DNA of 64,000 nt. Source: Candidatus Melainabacteria bacterium (GTDB lineage: Bacteria; Cyanobacteriota; Vampirovibrionia; 2-02-FULL-35-15). Of the stretch, positions 25,716 to 30,469 are shown in pieces. The notes beneath the pieces are model-generated. The model was not told the origin of the DNA. It was given only the letters and a program-made list of their open reading frames with translations, and ran no database searches. The stretch spans positions 186,001 through 250,000 of the forward strand of contig JAHFBF010000003.1 in NCBI GenBank assembly GCA_023250195.1, in the 5' to 3' direction. Position numbers and translations under genes: made by a program. Each line of letters begins with the position of its first letter. Positions within the stretch are counted from its first letter, which is position 1.

Positions 25716-28160
25716 TTAAACCCTGAATTTTGCCAGGAAGCAAGTAATAAGATGATTTTTTATTTTATTTACTTCATCTTCAATTTGTTTACTTGTAAGG
25801 GTTTGCTCAAAATCCTGCATTTTTACTCTGTATGTCAAGCTTCTATATTCTTTATCTAAATCATAAAGGCTGACAAGTTTTACACTTTGGACGAAGTTGG
25901 ATATTATTCTGATAATTTCATTTGAAATTGTATCAGCCTCGTACTTTTTTGAAATATCAATTGTTATATCTCTGATTACAGCAGGTTGTGAAGAGATTTT
26001 CTCAAATAAATGTGTTTTTTCTAAGTCACTTAATATTCCTTCAATATTAATTTCAAAAACCAAAACAGGCCATTTTAAGTCAAGTTTTTTCTCAAGTTGT
26101 GGATGTAAGCAGCCAAGTGTTCCAAGTATATTATTGTTAAAAGAAACAGCCAGTGAAAGCTTTGGGTGTAAAAAAGCTTCTTTGTGATGGATGAAACCTG
26201 CTTTGTATTTATTTCTTTCAAAGAAACTTTCTAGTATTCCCTTTCCTGTAAAAAACAAAATTTGGTTTGCTTCTCCTGATGAATGTTTGTTTGTAAACCA
26301 GGTTTCTTCATGTCCAGATATTACACCTGCTATCTTTGTGGTTTCTTCCACGCCGGTTTCTCTTTCGGATGATTTTCCTTTTAAGAAATAAACTTTACCA
26401 ATTTCAAAAAGTTTTACAGGATAAGTTTGATGACTGAAGTTTAATCTTAGTGCTTCCAAAAGTCCTGGGATTAGGCTTTGCCTTAAAATTGTATGTTCCC
26501 TTGAAAGTGGATTAAGCATAAGAATTGCCTCTTCTCTATTGAATGTAAATTCTTTGTTACTTAATACATTCTCACCTATAAGACTGCTTAAGTAAGCTTC
26601 AGAAAAACCTGCTGATAGAAAATGGCTTTTTATCTTTTTAAGCCCGGTATGTGTTTTTTTTGCAGCTAGGGTGGAAGGTGGAGGAAGAGCTTCTATCCGG
26701 TCATAGCCATATAGCCGGGTAATTTCCTCTATGAGATCTATGGGTCTATTGACATCATTTATTCTGCCGGATGGTACTGTAACCTCAATTTTGTCATCTT
26801 GAATAGAGTTGCACTTAAATTCTAATGACTCCAGTAATCCGACAATTTCTTTTATGCTTATATCTATCCCCAGAACCCTTTTAACTTCTTTTAGTGATAA
26901 TTGAATCTTGGCTTCTTTTTTTACAGGTTCTCCAGCTTGAACTATAGGACCAACTATAATTTTGTTGTTATCTTGTGCAGCTAATTCTTCTATAAGCTCA
27001 ATAGCTTTTAGAAGTGCATTGTAAGTAAAATTACTGTCTACACCTCTCTCAAAACGTTTTGAGGCATCTGTAGACAAGCCAATGGTTCTTGAACCCTTTC
27101 TTACTTTTAAAGGGCTAAAAACAGCTGCTTCAAGGACAATTTCTTTTGTGTTTTCAGTTACTTCTGAATCTTTTCCACCCATAATTCCAGCTACAGCTAC
27201 AGGGGTACTGCTATCTGCAATTACCAATACTGCTTCGGTTAATCCACGTTTTTTGCCATCCAGGGTTAAAATTTCTTCACCTTTTTTAGCAGTTCTTGAA
27301 ACAAGGAAGTCACCTTTTAGTTTTGTCTTATCATAAGCATGCATTGGCTGACCAAATGACCAATTTATATAGTTTGTAATATCTACAATATTATTTATAG
27401 CCTTAATGCCTACAGACTCAAGCAGCTTTTTTAGCCATTGTGGACTATCAGTAACTTTTATGTTTTGAATTGTAGCAGTATAAAAAAGAAAAGTATCTTT
27501 GGTGTTTTCAATTTTGCTTGAAATGCCTTTTACTGAATTATCAAATTTTGGAGCTTTGAAGCTTAATTCTTTCTTTTTTTTCTTTATTAGGGCACTGATT
27601 TCTTTGCTTAGACCATAAACTGAAAGTGCATCTCCTCTATTTGACCTGGAGGCTACCTCTAAAACAATATCCTGGCTTAATGAGAGGTAGTCAATTACAT
27701 TTTGACCAACTTGTGCTTCAGCGGGAAGAATTAAAATCCCATCTAACTCTTCCTGTGGTAACCCAAGCTCATTACCAGCACAAAGCATTCCAAATGACTC
27801 AATTTCACGAATTTTGCTTAATTTGATCTGGAGCTCGGATCCATCTTTTCTATTTATGACCATTGCTCCAGGAAGACAAACAGGGACCTTTTGTCCGACT
27901 TTAATATTTTTTGCTCCGCAAACTATTTGGAGTTTATTTTGTCCGTCTGTGGTTACTTTTGTGATTGAGAGGCGGTCGGCATTTGGGTGCTTATCTATAG
28001 TTAGGATTTCTCCGACGAGTATAGGACCCTTAAGTTTTGGACCCACTCTTTGAATATCTTCTACTTCAAAGGCTCCCATGGTCAGCTTTGAAGCAACTTC
28101 CTCGGGAGAAATGCCGTCTAAAGGTAAGAACTTGTTCAGCCAATTAATCGAGAGTTTCAT
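25716..28160 (-). CDS. pheT: Phenylalanyl-tRNA synthetase beta subunit
   Basis: 814 aa, the bacterial full-length form. EMAP/tRNA-binding domain near 40-150 (VGEILTIDKHPNADRLSITKV), B3/B4 editing domain (about 205-375), B5 domain (about 405-475), catalytic-like core and C-terminal FDX-ACB anticodon-binding domain (SSQPAVIRDITIDISKKY...TLTSKQIEDEVNKI). Pairs with PheS to charge tRNA-Phe. pheS is not adjacent, unlike in many bacteria. Confidence 0.96.
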   Translation of the reverse strand: MKLSINWLNKFLPLDGISPEEVASKLTMGAFEVEDIQRVGPKLKGPILVGEILTIDKHPNADRLSITKVTTDGQNKLQIVCGAKNIKVGQKVPVCLPGAMVINRKDGSELQIKLSKIREIESFGMLCAGNELGLPQEELDGILILPAEAQVGQNVIDYLSLSQDIVLEVASRSNRGDALSVYGLSKEISALIKKKKKELSFKAPKFDNSVKGISSKIENTKDTFLFYTATIQNIKVTDSPQWLKKLLESVGIKAINNIVDITNYINWSFGQPMHAYDKTKLKGDFLVSRTAKKGEEILTLDGKKRGLTEAVLVIADSSTPVAVAGIMGGKDSEVTENTKEIVLEAAVFSPLKVRKGSRTIGLSTDASKRFERGVDSNFTYNALLKAIELIEELAAQDNNKIIVGPIVQAGEPVKKEAKIQLSLKEVKRVLGIDISIKEIVGLLESLEFKCNSIQDDKIEVTVPSGRINDVNRPIDLIEEITRLYGYDRIEALPPPSTLAAKKTHTGLKKIKSHFLSAGFSEAYLSSLIGENVLSNKEFTFNREEAILMLNPLSREHTILRQSLIPGLLEALRLNFSHQTYPVKLFEIGKVYFLKGKSSERETGVEETTKIAGVISGHEETWFTNKHSSGEANQILFFTGKGILESFFERNKYKAGFIHHKEAFLHPKLSLAVSFNNNILGTLGCLHPQLEKKLDLKWPVLVFEINIEGILSDLEKTHLFEKISSQPAVIRDITIDISKKYEADTISNEIIRIISNFVQSVKLVSLYDLDKEYRSLTYRVKMQDFEQTLTSKQIEDEVNKIKNHLITCFLAKFRV

Positions 28161-28388
28161 AAAGCAAAATACCTAAGAAAATTATGACACAGGTCGACTA
28201 AAAATTTTGCAAAGGCACTTTATAAAAAACTTGAAATATCTAGGGGAATTGCAGATAAACTGCTGTTATAATCAAAAGCTTGTTAATAAGGTTATTTTTT
28301 CTAGTTAAACAAATACGAAAAGTTTAAAAAAGGGAATAAGTCTTATTAATAAAGATAAAAAATCAAATTAAAAACGGAGAAATAAAAA

Positions 28389-28418
28389 TGAAAATGAAAG
28401 GAGTAAAAATAGCTTAGT
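28389..28418 (+). CDS. Putative leader peptide of speD (9 codons)
   Basis: ATG behind GGAG (28377-28380) with an 8-nt spacer, encoding MKMKGVKIA, then TAG at 28416-28418. The RBS quality suggests translation. The stop codon directly abuts the outer helix of the following RNA structure, so ribosome occupancy could control folding. If TAG were read through, the frame stays open for 24 more codons to TAA 28491-28493. Confidence 0.45.
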
Positions 28419-28543
28419 TACTACCACCTAACGGTGACTGCCCAATTCCGGCCAAACGAAAATTTTGGAAATTAAACTGGGCACAATGGTAATAGTAAAA
28501 GTACAAAACAAATCAGGAAAAAATTTTAGGAATTTGTTTTGTA
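28419..28543 (+). ncRNA. Candidate structured leader (riboswitch-like) of speD
   Basis: Outer helix TTACTACCA (28419-28427) with TGGTAATAGTAA (28488-28499, bulged). Inside it TGCCCA (28440-28445) pairs with TGGGCA (28479-28484), enclosing CCAAA (28453-28457) with TTTGG (28465-28469). Unpaired CTAACGGTGAC and ATTCCGG could form a ligand pocket. A separate 11-bp hairpin follows: ACAAAACAAAT (28504-28514) with ATTTGTTTTGT (28533-28543), then the speD RBS GGAGG. It does not match any riboswitch class I can recall. A polyamine or SAM signal would be logical but is inference. Confidence 0.5.
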
Positions 28544-28564
28544 AAAGGCTGGAGGAAAGAAACA

Positions 28565-28993
28565 ATGTTTGGACCACATTTATTATTAGAAGGCTACGGT
28601 TCTCCAAAAGAGAAACTCTCTGACGTGAGTATGATTAGTGAACTTTTAGATATATTTCCTAAAAAACTTGCAATGACAAAAATAATGCCCCCATATGTAT
28701 TTAAATATGATGGTGGAGAAGTAAAGGAAGACTGGGGTATTAGTGGAGTTGTATTAATTGCTGAGTCACATATTGCTTTACATACATTTCCTGAAAAAGA
28801 ATTTTTTACCCTTGATATTTTTTCCTGTAAAGACTTTGACGTAAGAATTGCTGTAGATTTTGCCCTGGATTTTCTGCTTCCTGTTCATTTTGATGAAACA
28901 GTTATCACAAGAGGTAGGGAATTTCCACGTTCAATCGGACGTGCTGCAAAAATCGTAAATCAAGAGCGACGCAGAATAGCGAGTGTTAAATAA
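28565..28993 (+). CDS. speD: S-adenosylmethionine decarboxylase proenzyme SpeD
   Basis: 142 aa, class 1b. The autocleavage site is in AESHIALHTFPE: Ser68 becomes the pyruvoyl group, with His73, and the catalytic Cys in LDIFSC (Cys88) also present. It makes decarboxylated SAM, the aminopropyl donor for spermidine. RBS GGAGG lies 8 nt from ATG. The 285-nt structured leader implies regulation. A second, inactive-looking homologue is at 44642. speE is not in the window. Confidence 0.95.
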   Translation: MFGPHLLLEGYGSPKEKLSDVSMISELLDIFPKKLAMTKIMPPYVFKYDGGEVKEDWGISGVVLIAESHIALHTFPEKEFFTLDIFSCKDFDVRIAVDFALDFLLPVHFDETVITRGREFPRSIGRAAKIVNQERRRIASVK

Positions 28994-29017: not shown

Positions 29018-30469
29018 TTAAACAGGTTTCATCGTTGGGAAAGCTATAACATCTCTAATACTTGCAGAATTTGTAAGTATCATTATAAGTCTATCGATTC
29101 CAATTCCCAACCCACCTGTAGGAGGCAATCCATATTCAAGTGCAGTTATAAAGTCTATGTCCAGTGGATGAGCTTCATGATCACCGGAAACTTTTTTCTT
29201 TGCCTGCTCCTCTAGTCTTTTTCTTTGGTCCAATGGATCTGTTAATTCTGAAAAACTATTTGCAAGCTCCCAGCCATTCATATAAAGTTCAAATCTTTCA
29301 ACTAATCCATTTATAGAACGGTGTTTTTTTGCAAGTGGTGATACTTCAAGTGGAAAATCTTTTACAAATGTTGGCTGGATTAGTTTTGATTCTACGGTTT
29401 TTTCAAAGACTTCAATAATTTTTTCACAGGGGGCATCAGATAAATCAACCTTGGCATGTTCTTTAATTAGATCCAGCATCGAAATTCTTGCCCACGGCTT
29501 TTCAAAATCAATGATTTTTCCCTGATATTCTATCTGTAATTTACCGTGAATTTGTAAGCAGATAGTTTTAATTAAATCTTCTGTTAAATTCATCATGTCA
29601 TTGTAATCAGCATAGGCTTCATAAAGTTCTATAGATGTAAATTCCGGATTGTGTTTGGTAGAGATTCCTTCATTTCTAAAAATCCTTCCAAGCTCATAAA
29701 CTTTTTCAAAACCGCCTACTACGAGTCTCTTTAAGTGAAGCTCAGTGGCAATTCTAAGATAAAGATCCATCCCAAGTGCATTGTGATGAGTTACAAATGG
29801 TCTTGCTTCTGCTCCACCTGCTTCTACCTGTAAAACAGGAGTATCAATTTCAATATAATCTTTTGCATTTAAATAGTTTCTAAGTCCTGAGATTATTTGT
29901 GCTCGCTTTTTAAAGGTTTCCTTTGTGGTCGATGTAACAATTAAATCAAGATATCTTTGACGGTACCTCGTTTCTATGTCGTGAATCCCTAAATGCCTTT
30001 TCTTTCCTTCAATAATTTCAGGAAGAGGTAATAAAGATTTACAAAGTAAAGTCACCTCGCTTACTTTTATAGAAAGCTCTCCGCGAGGGGTTCTTCTGAC
30101 TGTGCCGGTCGCTCCAATAAAATCACCTTTGTCAAGAAGAGGTAAAAACTCAGTTAACTTTTTATCCAGTTTTTCTTTGTCACAATAGAGTTGGATTTTT
30201 CCCGAATCATCATAAAGATCAATAAATATCCAGTCATTCCTTTCATTATGAATTCTTCCTGAAACTATTACTTTGTCGTTTGTTTCCTGGCTATTTTGAA
30301 GATCTTTGTATTTGTTTTGAAGCTCGATAGCTTTATGAGTTCGGGAGAATTTATAGGGATAAGGATCAATCCCAAGGCTTTTTATTTTTTCAAGTTTTTG
30401 AAGGCGTTGCTCTCTTAAACGTGAAGATGATTCGTGTTCTGTTTGGATTTGAGGGTCTTTGGTTGACAT
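29018..30469 (-). CDS. lysS: Lysyl-tRNA synthetase, class II
   Basis: 483 aa. OB-fold anticodon-binding domain ([28 protein letters not shown]), motif 2 region ([28 protein letters not shown]) and motif 3 ([22 protein letters not shown]). The -10-like TATAAT at 30480-30485 is 10 nt before ATG, giving a very short leader. A perfect 28-bp palindrome (P3) follows upstream. Confidence 0.96.

Follow-up and report, generated by a model that had tools for sequence, protein, structure and literature searches.

The literature searched holds convincing evidence for one polyamine riboswitch class only, a SAM-I variant. This spermidine riboswitch is built around a four-stem junction and acts via transcription termination (Salvail et al. 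2023, PMC10853860). Another leader of a polyamine gene, the alphaproteobacterial odc1 motif, carries a conserved upstream ORF of 11 aa with closely spaced UUG starts (PMC8632094). Almost no regulatory RNAs have been described in the Melainabacteria lineage, and no speD leader motif was found for it in the literature searched (subscription papers and supplementary motif lists lay outside its scope). The leader described here, shared by two orders of this lineage, is probably, as judged by comparing sequences, an undescribed gene-control switch.

The window (the whole 64,000-nt stretch of DNA that was analysed) belongs to a genome of ~2.2 Mb from the Melainabacteria, which are non-photosynthetic Cyanobacteriota. 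Its speD product scores 71.8 bits against TIGR03330, slightly below the curated cut-off (75.65), and contains the processing motifs ESH and HT..PE, recognised by eye. The gene is monocistronic and both flanking genes are oppositely oriented (Table 1); being a single gene between divergent and convergent neighbours, it is the only one that the leader serves. A spermidine synthase homologue is coded at another site in the same genome, so the pathway is present. The strong extended -10 element that a sequence-only reading of this DNA had placed upstream of speD is present and, by eye, conserved in relatives, TGTTATAATC-n-AAnGCTTGTT being found at the promoter in G002, G006 and G008 as well; a simple sigma-70 scan, which requires a -35 element, gave no -35 match.

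Table 1. Features of the speD locus and its leader, in window positions
Feature	Position	Strand	Basis or remark
pheT-like gene, divergent from speD	25716-28160	-	name from translation read by eye
Extended -10 promoter element of speD, TG-n-TATAAT	28264-28272	+	sequence (TG 28264-28265, TATAAT 28267-28272)
9-codon mini-ORF MKMKGVKIA* (ATGAAAATGAAAGGAGTAAAAATAGCTTAG), outside the conserved element	28388-28417	+	RBS-bearing ORF only in G000 and G002
Conserved GAAAGGAG, Shine-Dalgarno-like, without conserved start codon	28396-28403	+	GGAG in 8/8 f1 leaders
P0 5' strand TTACTA, pairs with 28493-28498	28418-28423	+	minimum-energy fold; 6/8 f1 leaders
P1 hairpin CACC-TAAC-GGTG	28425-28436	+	8/8 f1 leaders, absent in second order
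GGTGACT, begun by 3' half of P1	28433-28439	+	invariant in 11/11 leaders
P2 5' strand TGCCCA, pairs with 28478-28483	28439-28444	+	11/11 leaders
P2 loop TTCCGGCC, anti-Shine-Dalgarno side of pseudoknot	28446-28453	+	TCCGG invariant; pairs with 28547-28554
P3 hairpin CCAAA/TTTGG inside P2 loop	28452-28468 (28452-28456/28464-28468)	+	8/8 f1 leaders, absent in second order
A-rich 3' side of P2 loop, AAATTAAAC	28469-28477	+	AAA invariant
P2 3' strand TGGGCA	28478-28483	+	minimum-energy fold, leader comparison
P0 3' strand TAGTAA	28493-28498	+	minimum-energy fold, leader comparison
P4 spacer hairpin, 11 bp, ACAAAACAAAT/ATTTGTTTTGT	28503-28542 (28503-28513/28532-28542)	+	fold
Pseudoknot partner GGCTGGAG, overlaps speD Shine-Dalgarno GGAGG (28551-28555)	28547-28554	+	8-bp complement of P2 loop
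speD, S-adenosylmethionine decarboxylase proenzyme, 142 aa	28565-28993	+	TIGR03330 E 5.4e-20
lysS-like gene, convergent with speD	29018-30469	-	name from translation read by eye

Searches of 40 relatives with 661 bp of DNA and with the speD protein yielded the speD leaders of eight families, among them f1 (the window's order) and f6 (a second Melainabacteria order, Caenarcaniphilales). The speD leader contains a conserved structured RNA (28418-28554 in the window) with the core consensus GGTGACTRCCCAAnTCCGG...AAAnTGGG, which is present in eight of the nine speD-bearing f1 genomes and in three of the four f6 genomes with an orthologous speD, the f6 members having GGTGACTACCCAAATCCGGG...TAAATTGGGT in common, 65-73 nt ahead of the start codon. 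Across these 11 leaders 24 alignment columns are invariant, the SpeD proteins of the two orders being just 53-59% identical, and the indel lengths, which are not multiples of three, argue against a coding explanation of the conservation. Taken by itself, the folding energy of the leader does not stand out (z -1.2 to -1.5); we regard sequence conservation as decisive in placing the leader beyond chance, and the leader is very probably a conserved cis-regulatory RNA.

A covariance model of 63 nt (R1) matched exactly 11 sites in 289 genomes of the class, one per genome and all upstream of speD, with E values of 1e-10 to 3e-16 in eight genomes and 3e-7 to 8e-7 in three, followed by a gap to chance level. 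The next matches (E 0.06 and worse) were rejected, the seven loci sampled (E 0.06-0.2) being chance-like and mostly coding DNA, and across 386 genomes of the phylum no scoring site was found outside the f1 members. When one genome per species was scanned for the exact pattern in ~85,000 species, eight matches stood before speD in Melainabacteria and seven more were discarded as chance (~15 expected by estimate); the pattern matches in Chloroflexi, Alicyclobacillus, Xenorhabdus and others had no speD nearby, and viral contigs contained no copy of the motif. Two genomes of the window's order (G001 and G010) have no detectable speD and likewise no motif; G001, from the window's genus, has a spermidine synthase homologue, its speD having been either really lost or missed in an assembly gap. 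The sole speD of this order without the motif (L138, in G007) has a leader that retains ACTACACAATTTT...GGCCAA fragments, possibly as a decayed or refolded form of the element.

The minimum-energy fold of 28418-28504 comprises P0, P1, P2 and P3; an outermost helix of the window fold, AGCTT/AGGCT, was rejected because it is not kept in relatives. The 6-bp inner helix, the terminal stem and the 11-bp hairpin ahead of the speD RBS that had been read from the letters of the window are all borne out, as P2, P3 and P4. The 9-bp outer helix (taken as TTACTACCA with TGGTAATAG) has a mismatch and is lost in relatives, the supported pairing being the 6 bp of P0, and CTAACGGTGAC, which had been described as unpaired, holds in the window's genome the loop and the 3' side of the P1 hairpin. 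As to conservation in relatives, whose absence was to refute the proposal, the core and P2 are conserved and the mini-ORF and the 9-bp helix are not. One of the leaders that keep P0 has a terminal mismatch and there is one U-A to A-U double change; P2 shows a G-C to A-U double change between the two orders, and the pairing of P4, absent in the second order, is retained despite base changes in G005, G006 and G009. Covariation across speD leaders, which had been suggested as a check, amounts to a few double changes (P0, P2 and the pseudoknot described below) and is thin, with 11 leaders and nearly invariant helix cores. Since P1, P3 and P4 occur in f1 only, the minimal element consists of GGTGACT, P2 and its loop, the smallest form (~65 nt) being that of Caenarcaniphilales. 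GGTGACT must have a role beyond P1, because it is invariant in f6, where its P1 partner CACC is absent.

These constraints bear on whether the leader could be a constitutive structure, with a role in tuning, mRNA stability or temperature response and without a specific effector. The modest folding energy would agree with this, as would the speD leaders of other families of the class, which differ or are without structure; however, a simple hairpin or thermometer would not need so much invariance at unpaired positions (TCCGG, AAA and, in the second order, GGTGACT), and we consider such a leader quite improbable.

The evidence for a regulatory RNA is extended by a pairing that was absent from the sequence-only reading. 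The P2 loop is complementary over 8 bp to the stretch that contains the Shine-Dalgarno (SD) sequence of speD (TTCCGGCC with GGCTGGAG), and this pairing potential is kept in 10 of the 11 leaders. It comprises 7-8 bp in seven of eight f1 leaders (the window's and six of the seven others), the exception being G009, which has lost the GGCTGG partner and is left with TTCC/GGAA alone, and 6-7 bp in the three f6 leaders (TCCGGG/TTCGGA or TCCGGGA/TCTTGGG). In G025 (f6) the last two pairs are G-C for C-G and A-T for C-G relative to f1, which are compensatory changes between orders. When the SD core was left in place and everything else shuffled, the chance of such pairing per leader was P 0.001-0.004 in f1 and 0.02-0.04 in f6. 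Every representative loop has its highest score against the SD region of its own leader, with one tie across loops on the same SD. The pseudoknot likely sequesters the SD of speD. The leader shows two features of a translational riboswitch: a conserved, aptamer-like RNA ahead of a metabolic gene, and the potential to pair with the SD of that gene.

Upstream of the core, the 9-codon mini-ORF with a proper RBS is present, although the view of it as translated is unsupported, as the ORF is limited to one genus; its stop (28415-28417) abuts the structure as had been noticed, but it is not conserved. An RBS-bearing upstream ORF is confined to the window's genus (g1), where the two genomes with speD have it: in G000 the frame is open, and in G002 a similar frame has a GTG start. 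The remaining f1 leaders lack a start codon, use another frame or have an ORF that no ribosome-binding site precedes. The conserved part is the GGAG inside the mini-ORF, 32-38 nt before GGTGACT in all eight f1 leaders (chance 0.04-0.15 each), which, speculatively, could act on the anti-SD loop as a decoy or be a ribosome standby site. If translation of the 9 codons sensed polyamines or an amino acid and refolded the leader, as in leader-peptide attenuation, which the sequence-only reading half proposed, this would account for the open frame that two species of the genus have behind a plausible ribosome-binding site, and upstream ORFs at polyamine genes are known elsewhere (odc1 motif, PMC8632094). 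Start, frame, length and peptide are, however, unconserved in the other f1 leaders that retain the RNA core, and the f6 leaders contain neither an upstream GGAG nor an ORF signal; an attenuator of this kind was rejected for want of a conserved uORF and is very improbable.

The structure, which the sequence-only reading had been unable to assign to a known class, has no counterpart in Rfam: the whole window searched against Rfam 15 at the gathering threshold gave no riboswitch match, and the leader at E<=10 gave three chance-level matches only, one of them a PreQ1 upstream of the promoter. The SAM-I/spermidine riboswitch (RF00162 and variant) was rejected, without a covariance-model match even at E<=10, as were the SAM-II, SAM-III, SAM-V, SAM-VI, SAM/SAH and preQ1 classes, whose Rfam models found no match. 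A SAM-I-type terminator platform was discarded as well: 28150-28600 contains no terminator-like site, which fits translational control.

A different speD leader is found in an Obscuribacteraceae-like family (f2; leaders L101-L130, L142 and L159-L188, with L104 as an example of the core before speD), arranged as GGAGG-n-ACACAACGCCCAACTYCCAG-n-CTGG...GTAAGCGTTTCGTGTACCCC-n-AGGGGGAA-ATG. A second covariance model, R2, found it once each in 45 of 50 f2 genomes, beside speD wherever both share a contig; R2 had no match in the phylum sample, and no Rfam family fits this leader. Its ACCCC element is complementary to its own SD, an unusual GGGGG that is present in 30 of 31 leaders, those with GTGTACCCC; the exception, G026, has ACCCAA with the SD TTGGAGG, so that CCAA/TTGG pairing is kept. 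AAGGTAAGCG occurs in all leaders with CTTCC or CTTTC and in none with CTCCC, and CCAG/CTGG is changed to TCAG/CTGA in two genomes. The f2 leader, which is even more conserved than the f1/f6 element, appears an even better riboswitch candidate. The two leaders share the gene, the class, an upstream GGAGG and an SD-complementary element (ACCCC in f2), whereas the aptamer-like domain of f2 is another one (ACACAACGC...GCGTTTCGTGT), and R1 and R2 do not cross-match. The divergent f2 leader of G026 (L105, 1390-1467) contains GGAGG, AACGCT...AGCGTT and TTTGACTACCCAA; the latter resembles GGTGACTACCCAA, and the leader recalls the f2 motif as well as the f1/f6 core. It could link the two types, a common ancestry of which is possible. 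In family f4, a near-identical CTACTAAAAGGATAAGTATGATATAGCG stands right before the speD ATG, with no ordinary Shine-Dalgarno, in three genomes of two genera (L144, L145 and L147), and L143, L146 and L151 have a possibly conserved stretch, GGTTAGC and then an A-rich run before the SD.

In the mechanism that we propose, the leader would be a cis-regulatory RNA governing speD translation, in which pairing of the P2 loop with the SD-containing stretch would block ribosome loading and turn translation off. A bound small molecule of the polyamine pathway would favour the pseudoknot, the foremost candidate being the end product spermidine, in feedback repression, ahead of SAM or decarboxylated SAM (dcSAM); less firmly, the upstream GGAG may compete for the loop or, while translation is ON, offer the ribosome a standby site. 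That such a metabolite favours an SD-blocking pseudoknot is fairly likely, and the leader is probably a small-molecule riboswitch, as a candidate. Of the earlier proposal of a possible new riboswitch this part stands (two orders, only before speD, not in Rfam, a plausible expression platform), and the half concerning the mini-ORF does not. Counting against a riboswitch are the thin covariation, the modest folding energy, the loss of P0, P1, P3 and P4 in the second order, the missing GGCTGG partner in G009 and the speD of G007 without the element. As one gene family is controlled, gene context defines the ligand as polyamine or SAM related at most, and spermidine is put forward tentatively.

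The same RNA and pseudoknot could respond to SAM (or dcSAM or MTA), like the small translational SAM riboswitches: speD consumes SAM, compact SAM-binding pseudoknots that block the SD exist (SAM-II, SAM-V and SAM/SAH), and the absence of a match to Rfam SAM classes is compatible with a new one. Repression of an enzyme by the substrate that it consumes is implausible, however, and an ON switch would be needed, yet the pseudoknot hides the SD; moreover, the R1 search found one site per genome and none before metK or other SAM genes. SAM, dcSAM or MTA is thus an unlikely ligand. A protein would leave traces similar to those of a small molecule, and a regulator, or SpeD itself in autogenous control, might bind GGTGACT/P2 and stabilise the SD-blocking pseudoknot. 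The single target gene per genome, the narrow phylogenetic range, the short, strictly conserved single-stranded stretches and the near-perfect co-occurrence with speD would suit such an operator, but there is no candidate protein, and SpeD is a small pyruvoyl enzyme for which we know of no RNA binding; we hold a protein operator to be unlikely too.

A polyamine-pathway metabolite remains the preferred ligand, and the element may tentatively be viewed as a new minimal class (~65 nt) that senses this pathway directly, represses speD through the loop-SD pseudoknot and has a common ancestor with the Obscuribacteraceae leader. If true, polyamine sensing by such an RNA would be ancient in the Melainabacteria lineage, with the f1/f6 and f2 leaders as its representatives. 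Binding is straightforward to test directly, as related groups offer two distinct speD leaders, both strongly conserved. Among known systems, the element resembles SAM-II, SAM-V, SAM/SAH and preQ1-II in its short hairpin, a loop-pseudoknot with or beside the SD, an A-rich loop strand and translational control; unlike them, it has no covariance-model match and its downstream gene is only speD, and GGTGACTRCCCAAnTCCGG is not, to our knowledge, known from any of the four. With the odc1 motif (PMC8632094) it shares a polyamine-gene leader with a pseudoknot, a sequestered RBS and a small ORF, although the f1/f6 leader has no conserved ORF and its fold differs. Like the spermidine riboswitch (PMC10853860), which is tied to speD and other polyamine genes, it would follow the logic of an off switch, but it has a ~65-nt core, no terminator and a pseudoknot to the SD. 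As a compact, speD-dedicated RNA unrelated to that SAM-I variant, it would be, if true, a second solution to polyamine sensing or a new SAM-related sensor.
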